A stretch of 49,148 nucleotides of DNA from Dehalococcoidia bacterium (GTDB lineage Bacteria; Chloroflexota; Dehalococcoidia; E44-bin15). Under the pieces are notes generated by a model. That model had not been told where the DNA came from, searched no databases, and saw only the letters and a list, made by a program, of their open reading frames with translations. The translations under genes and the position numbers were made by a program. Positions 34,020-49,148 of the stretch are shown here, piece by piece. Within the stretch, counting starts at the first letter, position 1. Each line of letters starts with the position of its first letter. The stretch covers positions 1 through 49,148 of the forward strand of contig DATKYK010000033.1 in assembly GCA_035528575.1 (NCBI GenBank). Reading direction: 5' to 3'.

Positions 34020-35228
34020 TTAATTAAGGCCGGCCTCAGCTTTGAGTATGGCCGCCTTATCGGTCTTCTCCCATGGGACATCTATATCGGTGCGACCAAA
34101 ATGACCATAGCTGGCGGTTTGCCTGTAGATTGGACGTCGTAACTTCATAGTCTCGATAATCGCACCAGGGCGAAGGTCGAAGTGCTTGTGGATCAGCTCA
34201 ACGATAACATCATCGGGGACCCTGCCGCTACAGAATGTCTCTATAGAGATGGAAAGGGGACGAGCCACTCCGATGGCATATGAGACCTGGAGTTCGAGGC
34301 GATCCGCTAGCCCCGCTGCTACCAGGTTCTTAGCCACATACCTGGCCGCATATGCCGCGGAGCGGTCCACCTTGGTAGGGTCCTTTCCCGAGAAGCTTCC
34401 GCCTCCATGTCTGGCGATGCCGCCATATGTATCAACCAGTATCTTGCGCCCAGTGAGGCCGGTATCTCCCATTGGTCCTCCAGTGACAAAGCGCCCCGTT
34501 GCATTGACATAATATTTGGTTCTTTCATTTAGTAGAGAAGCGGGGATCACGGCCTTGATCACCTGCTCAATAACATCGTGCTCAATGACATCGTGGCTGA
34601 TGGCAGGGTCATGCTGGGCGCCGATAACCACGCTATCGACTCGCTGGGGAACACCCCTGGAGTACTCCACCGTCACCTGCGACTTGCCATCGGGGCGCAG
34701 ATAACGCAGTGTGCCATCCTTTCTTACCTGGGCCAGTCTCTTGCATAACTTATGGGCTAGGGAAATGGTAAGGGGCATGAGCTCAGGGGTCTCGTTGCAG
34801 GCAAAGCCCACCATCATCCCCTGGTCACCAGCACCCAGGGTCTCTCTCTCGTTATTATCCTCACCGCTCCTTACCTCAAGCGATTTATCCACCCCCATAG
34901 CGATGTCCTTCGACTGCTCCTTGATGGAGACCATAACCCCGCAGGTCTCGCAGTCAAATCCGTACTTGGCACGGGTGTAGCCCACGTCTCGCAATACCTT
35001 GCGCACGATGTCCGGTATTTCTACATAGCAATCGGTGGTAATCTCCCCCATAACAAATACAAGCCCGGTTGTTGCTGCGGTCTCGCAGGCAACCCTAGCC
35101 ATAGGGTCACGTGCCAGAATGGTATCGAGGACGGCATCGGAGATTATGTCGCAGAGCTTATCAGGGTGGCCTTCGGTAACCGACTCGGAGGTAAGAAATA
35201 GCGAGGGTGCGCTCATAAAAGTTGTCAT
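34020..35228 (-). CDS. metK: S-adenosylmethionine synthetase
   Basis: MetK makes SAM from methionine and ATP. The 402-residue protein has [23 protein letters not shown] at the N-terminus, [22 protein letters not shown] near residue 133, and the phosphate-binding [23 protein letters not shown] near 275. The C-terminal [10 protein letters not shown] is short and normal. ATG at 35228 with GGAAGGAGAAAAAG upstream. It follows ahcY by 18 bases, so SAM synthesis and SAH recycling are in one operon. No SAM riboswitch is visible in the gap. Confidence 0.97.
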
Positions 35229-35246: not shown

Positions 35247-37417
<2,171 letters not shown>

Positions 37418-37473: not shown

Positions 37474-38022
37474 TCAACTATCATTTATCGTCGAATCCAG
37501 CCATTGGATCACCTGCTCCAGAACCTTCCGATGATTCGTCCTGGTCACCGTTATGATAACCACGTTGGGGTTTTGCCTAATCTGGTTGGCCCAGGGATGG
37601 GAAGAAAGCATGATGGTACCCAGCACCCTCTTATCGCTATTTACCGACTCCAGCACAGCTTCCTTGAAATCGGGTGAGAAAAGCTCCATCTTCCCGATCT
37701 CGTCGATCACTACCACATCGCACTCACGAGCTGCCTCCCTTAGTGCAGCGACTCCCACCCTATCCAGTCCATCTATATCCACCCCGTACTTGCTAACCCG
37801 ATAGGGACTCTTGATACCTGTATGGGCCAGGATGGCGCTCTCCCCATCTAGGGTAACGAGCCTGAAGCCCTGCCTCGCCCTGCTCTCCCTTATCTCCTCG
37901 GTGAAAAATCCCCCCGCTTTTATGTGAGTCCTATCCAGAGCTTGCTTAATAATTGTGGTCTTGCCCACCCCGGGGCCGCCGGTTAGGAGACAGGCTGTCC
38001 TCTCGATATTACTCTTCTTCAT
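37474..38022 (-). CDS. THEP1-type nucleoside-triphosphatase
   Basis: A 182-residue P-loop NTPase of the THEP1 family. Walker A is LTGGPGVGKTTII near residue 13, a conserved AGGFFTEEIRE near 36, and Walker B VVVIDEIGKMELFSP near 102. The THEP1 order, length and IDEIGKMEL motif are diagnostic. Family members hydrolyse NTPs to NDPs in vitro; the biological role is unclear. ATG at 38022 with GCGAGAAA upstream. It lies 56 bases upstream of the PfkB kinase and about 210 bases downstream of the Cys-rich protein gene; that gap holds no gene I can support. Confidence 0.9.
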   Translation of the reverse strand: MKKSNIERTACLLTGGPGVGKTTIIKQALDRTHIKAGGFFTEEIRESRARQGFRLVTLDGESAILAHTGIKSPYRVSKYGVDIDGLDRVGVAALREAARECDVVVIDEIGKMELFSPDFKEAVLESVNSDKRVLGTIMLSSHPWANQIRQNPNVVIITVTRTNHRKVLEQVIQWLDSTINDS

Positions 38023-38234: not shown

Positions 38235-38435
38235 CTATGTCCTTTGACCGAAAATCTCCACAAATTTGGCGATGGAGCGGTCGCAGGTTCTTTCGACATC
38301 CGGAGGGAAGAGGCAGCCCGGTAGCTCGCCAAGATTTCTATGATAGCGGATGCAATCGCAACACTTCCCCTTGCGCTCGCAGGGCTCGTAGGTGCAGGTG
38401 CACCCCTCTCTGTTGGCATCGATACTGCACTCCAA
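38235..38435 (-). CDS. Small Cys-rich protein (DUF6485-like)
   Basis: A 66-residue protein with eight Cys packed into its first half: [19 protein letters not shown] followed by [14 protein letters not shown] and [11 protein letters not shown], then a short helical tail ([11 protein letters not shown]). The CxCxYxxCxRKGxCCxCxxYHR pattern matches a small conserved family I know as DUF6485, of unknown function, common in anaerobes. The Cys spacing suggests a zinc or iron-sulfur site. The start is TTG at 38435 with GAGGGATGAGAGG upstream. It begins 4 bases after the core MetE stop, so the two are almost certainly co-translated. Confidence 0.75.
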
Positions 38436-38439
38436 CCTC

Positions 38440-39474
38440 TCATCCCTCTCTGATATATCTTTTTCTCAGTTCTTTTGATACCCCGGCAAGGCACTCCAAA
38501 GCCCACGCTGCCGCCTCCTCCGAGAGCGAGTCCAGGCCGCATGAAGGGGTAACCAGACATCGCTCTGTTAGCAGGCGAAAGCTGACCCCTTTTCGATCCA
38601 GTGCTCCCATTCCATCCTCCAGGCGGTCGATAAGGCTCTTTACCGTTTCTCCCTTCAGGGCTTGTTCATCGTTTGCTACGATGCCCCAGGCGATCACACC
38701 GCCACGCTCCAGAAATGATTTCACCTCCTGGGGATAAAGAGCAATGGTGTAACCATAATTATAGGCATCAAAGCTAAGAATGTCGAGGTTCGTGGCAAGC
38801 AGTATTGACCAATCCGTATTGCCACAGCAGTGTACTCCCTTGAGCCCGCTGATACCAGCGAAAACCTCCTCTAAAAGCCCTTTTACCTGCTCCTCAGCGA
38901 GTGAGACAAAGGCGGAACCCACCGATGCCATATAGGGCTCATCGACGAAGATGATGGTATTGGGTGAGATGGCCTTAAGCTCCCGCTCCTGCCAGGCAGC
39001 CTTCATGCGTAGGTGTTTGGCCAGGGCATCAGCAAGCGTATCGTCATAGAGGATGGGGCGACGGTTCTCATCGGTGACCGTTAGCCCCCAGGTAACAGGG
39101 CCGGTCACCTGTCCCTTGACGCCAAATGGCGACCTTAGCTCCACTTCAAGTAGTGTGTGAAGACCAGCGGCATAGTCCGGGCTTATAGCATATCTCTCGA
39201 CCCTGTTCTCTAGATAGGTATTGTAGAGCTGCTCCAGTGGCTCATCCAGATCTTTTGAACGATCGACATAAACTCGATCCCCTTCGATGACCACGCCGGG
39301 GAAACCATCGCTGAACTGGGCATACATGTTCTCCGAGAAGGAACGCTTGGGTAGTTGTGGCCAGGCGGGGATTTCGGGTAGGAACTTAGCCACCAGTGAG
39401 CAGGCCTCTCGCGGGTCGGTATGAGGCATGCTTCCCACTGCAGTAGCTAGTCCGCTTAACTCAAATCGGGGCAG
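38440..39474 (-). CDS. Core MetE-like methionine synthase (UROD/MetE barrel without the folate domain)
   Basis: A protein of about 344 residues that resembles only the C-terminal barrel of cobalamin-independent methionine synthase. The zinc ligands are visible as HxC in [10 protein letters not shown] and Cys in [15 protein letters not shown], aligning with the MetE pair HxC and NPDCGL. The entire N-terminal folate-binding half is absent. Stand-alone core enzymes of this kind in archaea and anaerobes remethylate homocysteine without methyl-folate, probably from a methyl-corrinoid. The conserved start region [21 protein letters not shown] needs a start upstream of GTG 39438. CTG at 39474 has AGGGAGGAG at good distance and is my choice. 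Methyl donor inferred, not seen. Confidence 0.82.
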
Positions 39475-39551
39475 TTTTCCGCTCCTCCCTAAGAGGTATC
39501 CCAGCAGCTCTACTCTTCACTATAGCAGCATTGAGTGGGCTATTCCTGAGA

Positions 39552-40415
39552 TCACCTAATATACTTACCAATTAAAAGGTCGAGTTCCTTTTTCATCCGC
39601 TCGGGAATCTTCTCCGAGTCGGTGATAATGGCGTTTTTAAGCGCCTCGGCACAGCCACATTCGCGTCCCTCTGGGATGCGTGCCGCCGCTATATTAATGA
39701 TCTTCTTGGCTATATCAGCACTACGCGCCAGGTTGGCAAGCGCCATTTCGATAGTTACCGACTCCTCGGTTTCATGCCAGGTATCGTAGTCGGTAATGCA
39801 GGCAAGTGTAGCATAGCATATCTCCGCCTCCCTTGCCAGCTTTGCTTCCGGTAATGCCGTCATACCTATGATGCTTGCTCCCCAGGAGCGATAGAGGTTC
39901 GATTCCGCCTTTGTGGAGAAGAGTGGCCCCTCCATCACGATATAGGTACCCTCCTGGTGAACATTGGCCCCCACATCGATGGATGCCTGATACAGTATAT
40001 TGCTGAGAACCGGGCAGAAGGGTTCGGCAAAGCTGGCATGGGCAACCAGCCCCCCACCGAAGAAGCTGTTCACCCGGCTTCTGGTGCGATCGATAAGCTG
40101 GTCGGGTATGACAATGTCCAGGGGATGGATACCCTCTTTCAGGCTTCCTACCGCATTGACGGAGATGATCCACTCCACGCCCAGTGACTTCAAGGCGTAG
40201 ATATTGGCGCGGGACGGTATATCCGAGGGGCTTACATAGTGCCCCCTGCCGTGGCGGGGGAGGAATGCGATGCTCTTCCCTTCCAGTTCGCCGATAATGA
40301 TAGCATCGCTGGGCTCGCCGAAGGGGGTCTTAGGCTTCACCTCTTTGACAACAGTCATCCCCTCTATTTGGTATAGTCCACTTCCCCCGATAACCCCTAT
40401 CTTGGCCTCAGGCAT
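39552..40415 (-). CDS. mtnP: S-methyl-5'-thioadenosine phosphorylase
   Basis: MtnP cleaves methylthioadenosine with phosphate to adenine and methylthioribose-1-P. The 287-residue protein has GVIGGSGLYQIEGM, phosphate-site LPRHGRGHYVSPSDI, VNAVGSLKEGIHPLDIVIPDQLIDRT, EGPLFSTKAES and IGMTALPEAKLAREAEICYATLACITDYDTWHE. The Asp residues in ITDYDTW are those expected for a 6-aminopurine (adenine) rather than a 6-oxopurine base. ATG at 40415 with GGAGG upstream. It is in the same orientation as mtnA but separated from it by an unrelated gene. Confidence 0.94.
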   Translation of the reverse strand: MPEAKIGVIGGSGLYQIEGMTVVKEVKPKTPFGEPSDAIIIGELEGKSIAFLPRHGRGHYVSPSDIPSRANIYALKSLGVEWIISVNAVGSLKEGIHPLDIVIPDQLIDRTRSRVNSFFGGGLVAHASFAEPFCPVLSNILYQASIDVGANVHQEGTYIVMEGPLFSTKAESNLYRSWGASIIGMTALPEAKLAREAEICYATLACITDYDTWHETEESVTIEMALANLARSADIAKKIINIAAARIPEGRECGCAEALKNAIITDSEKIPERMKKELDLLIGKYIR

Positions 40416-40455: not shown

Positions 40456-41301
40456 TTATGATGCTTTGTTATCTTTTTCAAACATACGCCCTGTATAATC
40501 GAATGGTAAGGGCATTTTCATTATGGGGTCTACGGCTTTGTCGAGATTAGTTACTATTGAGTCGAATCTCTTTTGCCATGAGATTACGTTTGGTTTGTCA
40601 TAATCTAGCTCTCTAGCAAGGGCGAAACTCTCAATCGCTTCTACGACACGAAGTATTGTTACAGTTAATATGAAAGCTTTATTTGGCAAATCCTCTATTC
40701 TCGTATCTGGCGCAGCCATTATCATGTACTCATCCCCTGTTAAAGATACTGACAATGCATCATGAAGTGCACAAGGGAGCGTTGGATGTTTTACTTTGCA
40801 TAACCACTGGTACTGCGCGTATATCATTTCAGCTTGAGCATCGTATTCCTGATCAGATAAAACCTTTCCAGATTTTTCGTCTTCTTGTTTTGATTGGTAA
40901 GCATACATTTTGCACAGATTGGCTACAGACCAAGGAGAGCCGCCAGATGCATGATTCCACATTTTTTCTGCCCTTTGAACATTGCCTGCTAAACAATTGG
41001 TAATAAGAGCATTTTCAAATGCTGCAGCTGCTACTGAGCCAGCTTGAGATGTATAACCGAGCAGGAGTAAGTTCCAAGTGGCCCTTAGGTCGTTTAGCAA
41101 GCGTTTTAAGAATAGAGCAGCGATAGCAATATCCTTAGTTTTTTGGCACTTGCAACTCAAAGTTGGCACTTCCATTCCACATTCATAGCAATCTGTAATG
41201 GGTCGCGAAAAAGGTTTCAGCATTTTCGCTATCTTCGGGCTTTCAGCTACTTCTAATGGCGACAAAGCGTCCCAGAACCCATGTGAATCCTTAATGACCA
41301 T
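40456..41301 (-). CDS. Unrecognised helical protein with N-terminal Cys cluster
   Basis: I do not recognise this 281-residue protein. Near residue 38 a small Cys cluster ([15 protein letters not shown]) could bind zinc. The rest is mostly helical and rich in Ala, Leu and Lys, with segments such as [20 protein letters not shown] and [18 protein letters not shown]; no signal peptide or membrane span is clear. The overall look recalls HEPN-like or DUF5677-like helical proteins, but this is a weak impression. The region looks more AT-rich than mtnP and mtnA on either side, consistent with acquisition. It overlaps the mtnA stop by 11 bases, with GGGG before its ATG, so it is translated from the mtn transcript. 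Confidence 0.75.
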
Positions 41302-42334
41302 CGTTTACCCCAAGCTTCCTCAACCTCTCCACATAGGGCTCGCGCACTATACCACGCTCGGTAATTATAGCAGATATGTAGCGATGGGGGGTAACATCGA
41401 AAGCGGGGTTTGCTACCTTAACTCCCTCCGGGGCGATAGGAACCCCTCTAATGTGGGTAACCTCTGTAGCGCTTCTCTCCTCAATGGGTATATCATCACC
41501 CGATTCCAATGATATATCGATGGTGCTTGTGGGGGCGGCGACATAGAAAGGGATACCATTCTCCATCGCCGGCACCGCCAAGTTATAGGTGCCGATTTTA
41601 TTCGCGACATCGCCATTTGAGGCAATCCTATCAGCACCTACGATTACGCAATCGATGCCTCCTCTGGAAAGGAAATGACCCGTCATGGTGTCGGTTATTA
41701 GGGTGAAAGGGATGTTATACTTAATTAGCTCCCATGCGGTAAGACGCGCTCCCTGTAGCAGGGGACGAGTTTCGCTAGCGAAGACGTGTATTTTTTTACC
41801 TCTCTCCCATGCCGTCCTGATTACCCCCAGTGCGGTACCATAGCCCGCTGCCAACGCCCCGGTGTTGCAGTGAGTCAGTATAGTAAAGCCATCCTCTATA
41901 AGCTCGTCACCGTAGGAGCTCAGCTTTCGCTCTGCCGCCTCACCCTCGGCATCCAGCCTTTGGGCCTCAGAGATAAGTGCCACTTTTATCCGGGCAACGC
42001 TCTCGCCGGCTTCTGCCACGCGGTTCATCCTCTCCAGTGCCCAGAACAGGTTAACCGCAGTGGGTCTGGTGGCAGAAAGCGTCTCTGAGATGGGACGAAG
42101 TTTTTCCATAAATTCATTCTTCGATTTTGCCTCGATCCCCTGTGCCCCCAGTGCTATCCCGTAGGCAGCGGCGATGCCTATAGCTGGCGCGCCACGGATT
42201 CTCATCCCCTTGATTGATGATGCCACCTCGCGGTAGTCCGAAATCTCCAGGAAAACCTCCTCCCATGGAAGCTTAGTCTGGTCGATCATTATAACCTTCT
42301 TTGATACCCACTTTATGGCTTTAAACTCACTCAT
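41291..42334 (-). CDS. mtnA: Methylthioribose-1-phosphate isomerase
   Basis: MtnA converts methylthioribose-1-P to methylthioribulose-1-P, the step after MtnP in methionine salvage. The 347-residue protein has [37 protein letters not shown]-type N-terminal motifs, the catalytic Cys in [20 protein letters not shown] near residue 155 and the catalytic Asp in [21 protein letters not shown] near 235. I chose ATG at 42334 ([10 protein letters not shown]) with GAGAGGGTTAAA upstream; a longer frame to 42370 is less like the family. Genes for later salvage steps (mtnB, mtnC, mtnD) are not in the window. Confidence 0.94.
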
Positions 42335-42387
42335 TTTAACCCTCTCATCTACTCCTCCATATATTTTCAAATTTGCGCCTGCCCACT

Positions 42388-46008: not shown

Positions 46009-46797
46009 TTATCTTGGCAGAGTCTGCCCGGGGACAACCACTACATGGGGCGTATTGGTAAAGGGGTGCCGTGTTACCTGAACCGAGGCAGAAAAGACCT
46101 CTTCTATAGTTTCGGCGGTGAGCACTTCTTCAGGGGTGCCATCAGCGAAGATGCTACCCTCTTTAAGCAGGATGAGCCTTTCGAAGTAGAGGGCAGCCAT
46201 GTTGAGGTCATGCATCACTCCTATAACGGTGACCCCCTGTTCGCGGTTGAGGCGCCGCACCAGGTCAAGGATCTCCACCTGATGGTTGATGTCCAGGTGC
46301 GCTGTAGGCTCGTCCAGAAGTAATATTCTAGGTTCTTGAGCCAGGGCCATGGCAAGGATCGCCTTTTGCCGCTCCCCGCCGCTTAGTTCATTGAAGAAAC
46401 GCTCCTTCAGGGATGCGATGCCGACATGCTCCATAGCTTGCTGCACCACGCTATGGTCCCGCTCCCCCTCATCGGAGAAGATGCTGTGAAAGGGGGTCCT
46501 GCCCAGAAGCACTACCTCCCTCAGGGTGAAGGCGAAGGGCATACTGAACTGCTGCGGCACTACAGCTACACGCTGTGCCACCTGCCTCCGTTTCATCCTG
46601 CCCAATATTGAACCGTTAAGATGTATATCTCCAGTTGCTGGTCTCAGTACACCGCTCACGAGCTTTATAAGAGTGGTCTTCCCCGAGCCATTTGGCCCCA
46701 GAAGAGCCACCACCTCTCCTTCCCCGACTGATAGGTTGATTTGACGTAAAACCGGGTTGTCACCATAGGAAAAAGAGACCTGCTTAATGCTAATCAT
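46009..46797 (-). CDS. ABC transporter ATPase, BtuD/FecE type
   Basis: A 262-residue ATPase powering the B12/siderophore-type importer. Walker A is LLGPNGSGKTTLIKL near residue 32, Q-loop VVPQQFSMPFAFTLREVVLLGR, signature LSGGERQKAILAMALAQ, Walker B ILLLDEPTAHLDINHQ and the switch His in VIGVMHDLNMAA. The pattern is that of type II importers. ATG at 46797 overlaps the permease stop (TGATG); an in-frame TTG lies one codon earlier. It is the last gene of the riboswitch-controlled unit, so cobalamin or another corrinoid is the likely cargo. Confidence 0.93.
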   Translation of the reverse strand: MISIKQVSFSYGDNPVLRQINLSVGEGEVVALLGPNGSGKTTLIKLVSGVLRPATGDIHLNGSILGRMKRRQVAQRVAVVPQQFSMPFAFTLREVVLLGRTPFHSIFSDEGERDHSVVQQAMEHVGIASLKERFFNELSGGERQKAILAMALAQEPRILLLDEPTAHLDINHQVEILDLVRRLNREQGVTVIGVMHDLNMAALYFERLILLKEGSIFADGTPEEVLTAETIEEVFSASVQVTRHPFTNTPHVVVVPGQTLPR

Positions 46798-47867
46798 CAA
46801 AAAGCATACTCCCTTCTGGTGTGCCTCAACAGGTAAATGAAGAACGGTGCCCCGATGATAGCAGTCAGGATCCCTATTGGTATCTCACTAGGGGCAAGCA
46901 CGGTGCGGGCAAAGAGGTCGGCGAGGACAAGGAAGGCACCGCCAGAAAGCGCTGCCGCTGGCAGGAGGAGGCGGTGGTCGGGGCCCAGCACCAGCCTAAC
47001 TGCATGGGGAACCACCAGCCCGACAAAGCCCACCAACCCGCTTATGGAGACTGCCGCTGCCGTTAATAAGGAGCCCAGGGCAAGGATAAGAATTTTTTCC
47101 CGCTCCACATCGATCCCCAGGTATGCAGCACCCTCCTCCCCCAATGAGAGGGCATTGAGACGAAAGGCAAGGAAGCGGGCAGCGATAATCCCTCCTATGA
47201 TCAGCGGGGCAATGAGGGCAATCTGTGTCCAGCCGGTTACCGAGATACTTCCCATGAGGAAAGAATAGACGTTCTGCAGAAACCCTTGCCTGCCGCTCAG
47301 GGTCACCATGAGGAAAACGACAGCGGTCAACATCGCGCTTACGGCAAACCCGGCGAGGAGCATGCTCACAATGGGTGTTTTACCTCCTACTTTGGCCAGG
47401 TTATACACCAGGAGTACAGCACCCAGCGCCCCAAAAAAGGCGGCGATGGGCACCAGTCCAAAGCTGAGGAAGGCAACACTTACCGGGAGCATCATGGCAA
47501 TGGTAGCTCCAAAGGCAGCGCCGGCCGAAGTGCCTATAATGTAGGGGTCAGCCATCGGGTTTCGCAGCATCCCCTGGAACAGCACCCCCGCCGATGCCAG
47601 AGCTGCCCCCACTAATGCCCCGGCAACGACCCGGGGTAGCCTGATTAGAAAAAGGATGGTCTCATCGCTTGGCTGCCAGGTGGCGGTGAAATGGAACAGC
47701 CCCGTCTTGTCCAGTACCATCTTTATTATATTTAGCGGAGAGATGGAAACTGCCCCGAGAGAAACGGCGATAAGCATGCACAGAAGCAGGAGCGCTCCCA
47801 GCGCCAGTAAGATCAGCAGCCGGCGATTTTGCCTTAATCTGGCGAACAAATCTAATCCTTTAAGCAC
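46797..47867 (-). CDS. ABC transporter permease, BtuC/FecCD type
   Basis: A 356-residue membrane protein with about ten helices, the type II importer permease. Motifs are the LIRLPRVVAGALVGAALASAGVLFQGMLRNPMADPYIIGTSAGAAFGA block near residue 72 and GLVGFVGLVVPHAVRLVLGPDHRLLLPAAALSGG near 268, both diagnostic of the FecCD family, and a C-terminal IGILTAIIGAPFFIYLL. The start is GTG at 47867. It works as a homodimer with the ATPase and receives substrate from the binding protein encoded 65 bases upstream. Confidence 0.94.
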   Translation of the reverse strand: MLKGLDLFARLRQNRRLLILLALGALLLLCMLIAVSLGAVSISPLNIIKMVLDKTGLFHFTATWQPSDETILFLIRLPRVVAGALVGAALASAGVLFQGMLRNPMADPYIIGTSAGAAFGATIAMMLPVSVAFLSFGLVPIAAFFGALGAVLLVYNLAKVGGKTPIVSMLLAGFAVSAMLTAVVFLMVTLSGRQGFLQNVYSFLMGSISVTGWTQIALIAPLIIGGIIAARFLAFRLNALSLGEEGAAYLGIDVEREKILILALGSLLTAAAVSISGLVGFVGLVVPHAVRLVLGPDHRLLLPAAALSGGAFLVLADLFARTVLAPSEIPIGILTAIIGAPFFIYLLRHTRREYAF

Positions 47868-47932
47868 ATATATGGTAATCCAGCGTTATTCACGCTAGAC
47901 ACCAGCGCCGCTGGAATGCAGCAGTCCTCAAG

Positions 47933-48889
47933 CTAGTCCTCAAAGAGCTCAGGGTGAATCAACGTTGCCAGTAGCTCCAACCCCTCGGCGATACGCGGTC
48001 CGGGGCGCACAAGCGTAGTATCATCAATAGCAAAGATCCTTTCATTCTTAATCGCATCCAGGTCTTCCCATACTGGTTTGCTCACTACATCCGCGGTGGA
48101 GACACCCCAAAGAGCGCCACCAAGCACTATAATGTCAGGATTGGTATCAACCAGATCCTCCAGGTTATAGGTGGGCCACCCCTCAAGATCTCCAGCGATA
48201 TTTACGCCGCCGGCCAGAGCAATAAGAGCATCTATGAAAGTGCCATTACCTGCGGTCCACAGTAAAGCTGGATTGCTAACATCGACTCCATAAAAAACGG
48301 CTCGTATCGAGACACCGGAAACCTTAGCTACAATCTCATCGATGTCGTCTCCTAAATCAGCAACTAACACCTCCGCTTCCTCTTCCTTACCGCTTACTTC
48401 TCCAACCAGCTCAATATCATGAAAAATACCATCGATGTCCTTTGCATTGAGGACGATCGCCGGAATTCCTAATTCATCTAGATCATAGACATAATCGGGA
48501 ACCGTCGCACCGATAGCGAAAACCACATCAGGCTTTAAATCCACGATGGTCTCCAAGTTGAATCCGGGAAAGGGCGCGCCAACTTTTTGTATTTCGCCGG
48601 TATCTATTTTCTCCACTAGCTCTTCCGGATAGTCGCAGTAATCGGTAACTCCGACCACCTTGTCTCCCACACCGAGGGCAAATAAGATCTCCGTAGCACT
48701 GGGAGCAAGGGAAATGACGCGCTCTGGGATATCTGCTATAGTGACCGTTCTCCCATGGTCATCGGTTATCTCCAGCGATTGTTTGGTATTTGAAGGTGAT
48801 GATGTAGAAGAAGCAGTAACCGGTAGGAGCGCGCCGGCCAAAATCAGCGCAGAGCCTAGAGCAATCAAAATCAAAGCTAACCTTTTCAC
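47933..48889 (-). CDS. ABC transporter substrate-binding protein, BtuF type
   Basis: A 318-residue extracytoplasmic binding protein of the BtuF/FhuD type. The N-terminal KRLALILIALGSALILAGALL is a signal peptide or anchor, then the TDDHGRTVTIADIPERVISLAPSATEILFALGVGDKVVGVTDYCDYP region typical of B12-binding proteins, VGAPFPGFNLETIVDLKPDVVFA, and a C-terminal lobe with WPTYNLEDLVDTNPDIIVLGG. I chose GTG at 48889 with AAAGGAGGG upstream; a longer frame to 48916 would begin inside the terminator T-run. There is no lipobox Cys, unusual if the cell has one membrane. It is the first gene of the riboswitch-controlled operon. Confidence 0.93.
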   Translation of the reverse strand: MKRLALILIALGSALILAGALLPVTASSTSSPSNTKQSLEITDDHGRTVTIADIPERVISLAPSATEILFALGVGDKVVGVTDYCDYPEELVEKIDTGEIQKVGAPFPGFNLETIVDLKPDVVFAIGATVPDYVYDLDELGIPAIVLNAKDIDGIFHDIELVGEVSGKEEEAEVLVADLGDDIDEIVAKVSGVSIRAVFYGVDVSNPALLWTAGNGTFIDALIALAGGVNIAGDLEGWPTYNLEDLVDTNPDIIVLGGALWGVSTADVVSKPVWEDLDAIKNERIFAIDDTTLVRPGPRIAEGLELLATLIHPELFED

Positions 48890-48913
48890 TAAACCCTCCT
48901 TTTTATGACAGAA

Positions 48914-48946
48914 CAAAAAAATCCCCTCGCTCTGCAGAACGAGGGG
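48914..48946 (-). terminator. Intrinsic terminator downstream of the cobalamin riboswitch
   Basis: On the minus strand a CCCCTCG arm (48946-48940), a 10-base loop and a CGAGGGG arm (48929-48923), followed by A and seven T. The seven-base GC-rich stem with T-run is a textbook terminator. It sits between the aptamer and the start codon of the binding-protein gene, where it would stop transcription when B12 is bound. Confidence 0.9.
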
Positions 48947-49004
48947 AACATTCAGGCTAACTGGCCATGCTTCCCACCCCCCTTTACTCCGCGGAGGCTT
49001 TAGG

Positions 49005-49130
49005 AAAACCAGAGGCGGGTGTTCTGACTCCCCCGAATTTCGGGGTCACAGTAGGCGGGACTGTGCCGGATTCTCACCGGTCTTGCATTCCCGTTAAGCC
49101 CTCGCTCACGCTCGGGCACCTCTAGGCTCT
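49005..49130 (-). promoter_or_regulatory. Cobalamin riboswitch aptamer
   Basis: Read on the minus strand, the core of a B12 aptamer is visible: P1 arms CCTAGAGG (49126-49119) and CCTCTGG (49015-49009), then GGGAATGC, ACCGGTGAGAATCCGG, CAGTCCCGCCTACTGTGA, a CCCCGAAATTCGGGG hairpin and GAGTCAGAACACC. The usual core reads CCCGC(C/T)ACTGTGA, so this copy has one extra base. It precedes the terminator and the BtuFCD-type operon and should switch that operon off when cobalamin is plentiful. The promoter lies near or beyond the right edge. Confidence 0.9.
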
Positions 49131-49148
49131 CTATTCAACTTTGCTCAG

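Follow-up and report, generated by a model that had tools for sequence, protein, structure and literature searches.

The 49,148-nucleotide contig analysed here (DATKYK010000033.1 of the Dehalococcoidia bacterium assembly GCA_035528575.1; hereafter the window) carries a gene that, as judged from its sequence, is an ortholog of the core-MetE/MesB gene of D. mccartyi. We assign a probability of roughly 0.9 to the product being a MesB-type core methionine synthase that is most likely fed by the methylated corrinoid iron-sulfur protein (methyl-CoFeSP). The original prediction of a candidate folate-independent methionine synthase holds as to the identity of the enzyme, with support from sequence, fold, neighbourhood and genome context. 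The D. mccartyi enzyme was, however, purified in 2020 (PMC7005905) and named MesB in 2021 (PMC7857596), and the window adds a member to this published type rather than a new kind. The results confirm that the folate-independent methionine synthase of D. mccartyi and its gene neighbourhood are kept across many uncultured Dehalococcoidia.

The mesB frame is free of stops over 344 codons. The default open reading frame call begins at GTG 39438 and yields 332 aa, a start that would remove the conserved TAVGS segment as far as Val13. CTG 39474 was preferred because AGGAG lies 7 nt ahead of it and because of the start codons of relatives, in which the homologous codon is ATG (18), TTG (3), GTG (1) or CTG (1); the count is limited to the 23 named mesB loci (of 80) with a match starting at residue 1. 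Thus, mesB probably starts at CTG 39474, in agreement with the coordinates given originally. Another CTG start of a mesB gene, with a GGAGGAG leader resembling that of the window, was seen at L045:720. The folate-binding N-terminal half of MetE is absent from the frame, consistent with the stand-alone core that had been described. The GVHCCGN and TPSCGL motifs are located at residues 213-219 and 309-314, respectively.

Table 1. Features of the window relevant to mesB, with positions counted from the first letter of the window.
Feature	Position	Strand	Basis or remark
metK, methionine adenosyltransferase	34020-35228	-	TIGR01034 above cut-off
ahcY, adenosylhomocysteinase	35247-36500	-	TIGR00936 above cut-off
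PfkB-family kinase	36497-37417	-	
NTPase_1 (PF03266) nucleoside-triphosphatase	37474-38022	-	
DUF6485 (PF20095), 66-aa Cys-rich protein	38235-38435	-	directly downstream of mesB
mesB (core-MetE), 344 aa	38440-39474	-	probable CTG start; homology, ligands, fold
Predicted zinc ligands of MesB	H215 38830-38832; C217 38824-38826; D236 38767-38769; C312 38539-38541	-	homology
Q122 of MesB	39109-39111	-	
AGGAG ribosome-binding site	39482-39486	-	7 nt ahead of CTG 39474; read from sequence
MTAP, S-methyl-5'-thioadenosine phosphorylase	39552-40415	-	TIGR01694 above cut-off
mtnA, S-methyl-5-thioribose-1-phosphate isomerase	41291-42370	-	TIGR00512 above cut-off
BtuF/BtuC/BtuD-type importer (FecCD/Peripla_BP_2/ABC genes: 47933-48916, 46797-47867, 46009-46800)	46009-48916	-	context only
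Cobalamin riboswitch (RF00174)	48997-49138	-	45.3 bits; context only

The window MesB aligned over 340 aa with the mesB product of genome G060, which we take to be D. mccartyi 195 and whose protein stands for that of the strain in this comparison, with 49.4% identity and a phmmer score of 370 bits. The family was delimited in PMC7857596 by a phmmer score against DET0516 of at least 130 bits (in its Results) or 173 bits (in its Methods), and the present score lies far above either value. The published D. mccartyi protein (cbdbA481, DET0516) likewise has no folate half, and the 49% identity runs from end to end. A MesB match was found in 36 of the 60 genomes compared (own genome counted), which argues against a chance match, and in all 11 genomes of Dehalococcoidaceae (1.4-2.1 Mb, ten of them single contigs) at 47-51% identity. 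No Pfam match of the window MesB was obtained at E 0.1, PF01717 (MetE) included, so that the protein, which has no N-terminal half either, falls outside canonical MetE; the scores with two NCBIfam 'methionine synthase' models were far below both cut-offs. Annotation libraries therefore overlook MesB, as seen with the window protein.

The residues expected of a zinc-dependent methionine synthase were evaluated in alignments. Alignment A1 comprised 18 of the 29 other relatives that had loci. Alignment A2 comprised the window protein and 75 of the 80 named loci (76 rows), leaving out L049, L053, L061, L070 and L097, which have a stop in the matched stretch or are out of frame. The Dehalococcoidaceae alignment A4 comprised 8 of the 11 genomes, with L125, L127 and L133 left out for a stop in the stretch. 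Every one of the 76 proteins of A2 has H215, C217, D236 and C312, which are numbered identically to the zinc ligands His215, Cys217, Asp236 and Cys312 of the D. mccartyi enzyme (Deobald et al., PMC7005905). The conservation of the HxC and TPSCGL cysteines noted originally was confirmed; the fourth ligand had been missed, and is Asp236 at the site where MetE, which also has the folate half, has Glu. Asp178 (76 of 76) and Ser15 (70 of 76) are the equivalents of E. coli MetE Asp599 and Ser433, for which roles in homocysteine binding are described (PMC7857596).

Alignment of the profile with MetE by hhalign gave an E value of 8.5e-6, with the H, C, D/E and C ligands and the VDEP motif aligned. The AlphaFold model of the window MesB has a pLDDT of 94.8. 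The best match in a structure search with the model was MesD of Shewanella (3rpd; Z 26.8, 285 residues, rmsd 3.1), also a stand-alone core, at 19% identity, followed by the C-terminal halves of MetE at Z ~26; residues 1-341 of the model correspond to 393-733 of T. maritima MetE (1xdj, Z 26.1), so that the match spans only the half of MetE with which the window MesB shares fold and zinc site. The link to this fold rests on the predicted model because a phmmer search of PDB sequences with the window MesB gave nothing at E 1 and a 19-row profile gave as sole match 2nq5 (MetE) at E 0.92. In a 28-row tree of MesB-like proteins and MetE, from which the short paralog fragments L177 and L178 were left out, the two MetE rows split off at 100/100; the tree check proposed originally thus separates MesB from MetE, but the base of the MesB side was not resolved.

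The gene order on the minus strand is mtnA, a 281-aa open reading frame, MTAP, mesB, DUF6485, NTPase, pfkB, ahcY and metK. The placement beside metK and ahcY claimed originally is correct as to strand, but the genes are not immediately adjacent, with DUF6485, NTPase and pfkB between. The neighbours mtnA, MTAP, DUF6485, ahcY and metK are common to the window and the D. mccartyi locus, whereas pfkB and NTPase, which separate DUF6485 from ahcY in the window, were not detected at the G060 locus. Deobald et al. located the D. mccartyi gene by inspecting the surroundings of metK and ahcY, with which it shares an operon (PMC7005905). Among the named loci with enough flank, MTAP is directly upstream of mesB in 48 of 68, the locus includes mtnA in 42 of 60, ahcY in 30 of 50 and metK in 24 of 50, and DUF6485 is directly downstream of mesB in 27 of 78; the counts derive from tblastn of the 80 loci and are lower bounds. 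DUF6485 was found in 15 of 36 genomes with MesB (directly downstream of mesB in 10 of the 15) and in 0 of 24 without. Since it is present in two controls as well, Thermotoga maritima and Methanocaldococcus jannaschii, DUF6485 is not specific to MesB; a literature search on DUF6485 found no paper. Between 33,900 and 46,100, sites resembling promoters or terminators occurred no more often than in shuffled sequence, and thus no transcript limits are claimed.

The genome of the window (96% complete) contains on contig C12 a cluster of acsB, acsD, acsC, an ATPase gene and an AcsE-like gene, and thereby has the AcsC/AcsD (CoFeSP) components expected of a MesB organism; the AcsE-like protein scored just below the NCBIfam cut-off (257.4 vs 259). 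An AcsE-like gene with 51% identity to the G000 copy also lies ~4.7 kb upstream of mesB at L106:404-1321, on a contig titled Anaerolineales. No match to PF02574 (the MetH/BHMT homocysteine domain) or PF01717 was found in the genome. The window MesB is most likely the methionine synthase of its genome and, with respect to the families searched (MetE and MetH/BHMT), we infer that it is the sole one. Among the 60 genomes, which are related, so that association p-values represent non-independent tests, a strong CdhD match was found in 30 of 36 genomes with MesB vs 5 of 24 without, PF02574 in 3 of 36 vs 14 of 24, and PF01717 in 2 of 36 vs 10 of 24. The six genomes with MesB and without a strong CdhD match are G009, G011, G016, G033, G036 and G059; four of the six are incomplete (54-82%), and the remaining two, G033 and G036, have more divergent MesB homologs together with MetH- and MetE-type matches.

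CoFeSP as methyl donor of MesB is a published proposal (PMC7857596, PMC7005905), with which the co-occurrence of CdhD and MesB agrees. The zinc predicted on H215, C217, D236 and C312 would activate homocysteine as the thiolate, which would form methionine by attacking the methyl carried on a corrinoid protein; the most likely such protein is the CoFeSP AcsCD of the acetyl-CoA pathway. MetK would then convert methionine to SAM and AhcY would give back homocysteine, while MTAP and MtnA would begin methylthioadenosine salvage. For the D. mccartyi enzyme, methylcobalamin-dependent methionine formation is reported, with zinc put in the site by a computed model (PMC7005905). MesD, by comparison, requires MesX and oxygen (PMC7857596); the genome of the window has acetyl-CoA pathway genes. 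It also has three MetF-family genes besides the AcsE-like gene, whereas D. mccartyi is reported to be without metF and acsE (PMC7857596, PMC7005905) and the known Dehalococcoidia genomes are stated in PMC7005905 to be without metF. PF02219 (MetF) matches were found in 53 of the 60 genomes, own included, and therefore methyl-THF could feed CoFeSP here; the MetF-family and AcsE-like genes together suggest such a route of methyl groups to CoFeSP.

A MesB-type enzyme could also take its methyl groups in vivo mainly from another corrinoid protein, such as the HgcAB-like fusion encoded on G000:C41 or a corrinoid protein of a methyltransferase system, an alternative we consider unlikely. The mesB cluster of G010 (JAUXBC010000064.1, L047) includes genes for an HgcAB-like fusion and for a CpaM-like methyltransferase, placed between mtnA and MTAP, and use of other corrinoid proteins by some MesB paralogs was suggested by Price et al. 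(PMC7857596). Neither acsC nor acsD was found in the 80 named mesB loci, the acsC hits at L047 and its duplicate L139 being the HgcAB-like protein, and no operon link of mesB to the donor was therefore seen. However, HgcAB-like proteins with at least 60% identity occur in only 4 of the 60 genomes (G000, G001, G003 and G010), compared with 36 for MesB. G040 and G058 have weaker relatives, nearly full length at 35% in the former and partial in the latter. CoFeSP tracks MesB far better. The corrinoid-ferredoxin fusions at G000:C41:40811-41887 (L140:2809-3888) and L139:2031-3116 both score above the NF043039 cut-off. The CpaM methyltransferase (NF043040) encoded beside the fusion is above cut-off for the G000 copy.

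PMC7005905 proposes that the lower cobalt ligand is His122, in an HxxG motif said to be conserved throughout the Dehalococcoidia; this is a side claim and not part of what defines the MesB family. The window has Gln122 in place of the D. mccartyi His122. Among the 76 aligned proteins (window included) the position is Gln in 68, His in 5, Cys in 2 and Glu in 1, and of the eight aligned Dehalococcoidaceae all 3 from the genus of G060 (g23) have His and all 5 from genus g55 have Gln; the MetE rows of the tree have Met. On these counts, a general His-on role of residue 122 is unlikely. The Gln122 finding leaves most of the MesB family without the residue proposed to bind the cofactor and favours a protein-bound corrinoid as donor. 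A more speculative extension, which we hold to be rather improbable, is that MesB needs no cobalt histidine of its own and docks a base-off, protein-bound corrinoid (CoFeSP), with DUF6485 as a dedicated partner for methyl hand-over. If true, all SAM in this lineage would hang on the corrinoid protein of the acetyl-CoA pathway, with methyl-THF as a possible methyl source via the AcsE-like protein.

It is very unlikely that the window MesB is a zinc thiol methyltransferase acting on a thiol other than homocysteine. Changes of acceptor seem to occur in the family, as a paralogous MesB-like clade of the same class has Ile in 10 of 10 tree rows for Ser15, which corresponds to the carboxylate-binding Ser433 of MetE. 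The window MesB retains both Ser15 and Asp178, its gene lies in the metK-ahcY-mtnA-MTAP cluster, and its genome has no match to the other methionine synthase families tested. Furthermore, the D. mccartyi enzyme formed methionine but showed no activity when offered cysteine, glutathione or dithiothreitol (PMC7005905). The Ile15 clade (L161-L165, L168, L173-L176) has HLCANVN-like and ARCC motifs with the zinc ligands kept, was not found in the genome of the window, and may methylate another thiol. Finally, a catalytically dead homolog, as reported for Chloroflexales proteins without zinc ligands (PMC7857596), or a URO-D family protein, of the same fold at Z 20.4, is scarcely credible for a protein with all zinc ligands, no PF01208 (URO-D) match and a model for which MetE and MesD structures outrank URO-D, in a genome whose URO-D matches lie elsewhere; the URO-D placement against which the original prediction was to be judged did not appear by sequence or fold.

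The riboswitch and BtuFCD-type importer, which had been claimed to fit a B12-dependent methyl supply, are real, but are taken here only as context of mesB. The riboswitch lies ~9.5 kb upstream of mesB, separated from it by the importer and seven further genes, and is for this reason not taken to control mesB. Both elements fit a corrinoid-using organism and reveal nothing specific to mesB; it is the acs cluster on contig C12, and not the B12 importer, that points to the methyl donor.

The 281-aa open reading frame at 40456-41301 on the minus strand, between MTAP and mtnA, had no Pfam or NCBIfam match. Its G+C content is 41%, compared with 52-56% in its neighbours, and a weak PADLOC match to AbiB was obtained (E 2.3e-5). 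The frame resembles an insertion and occupies the position taken by CpaM-HgcAB in G010.
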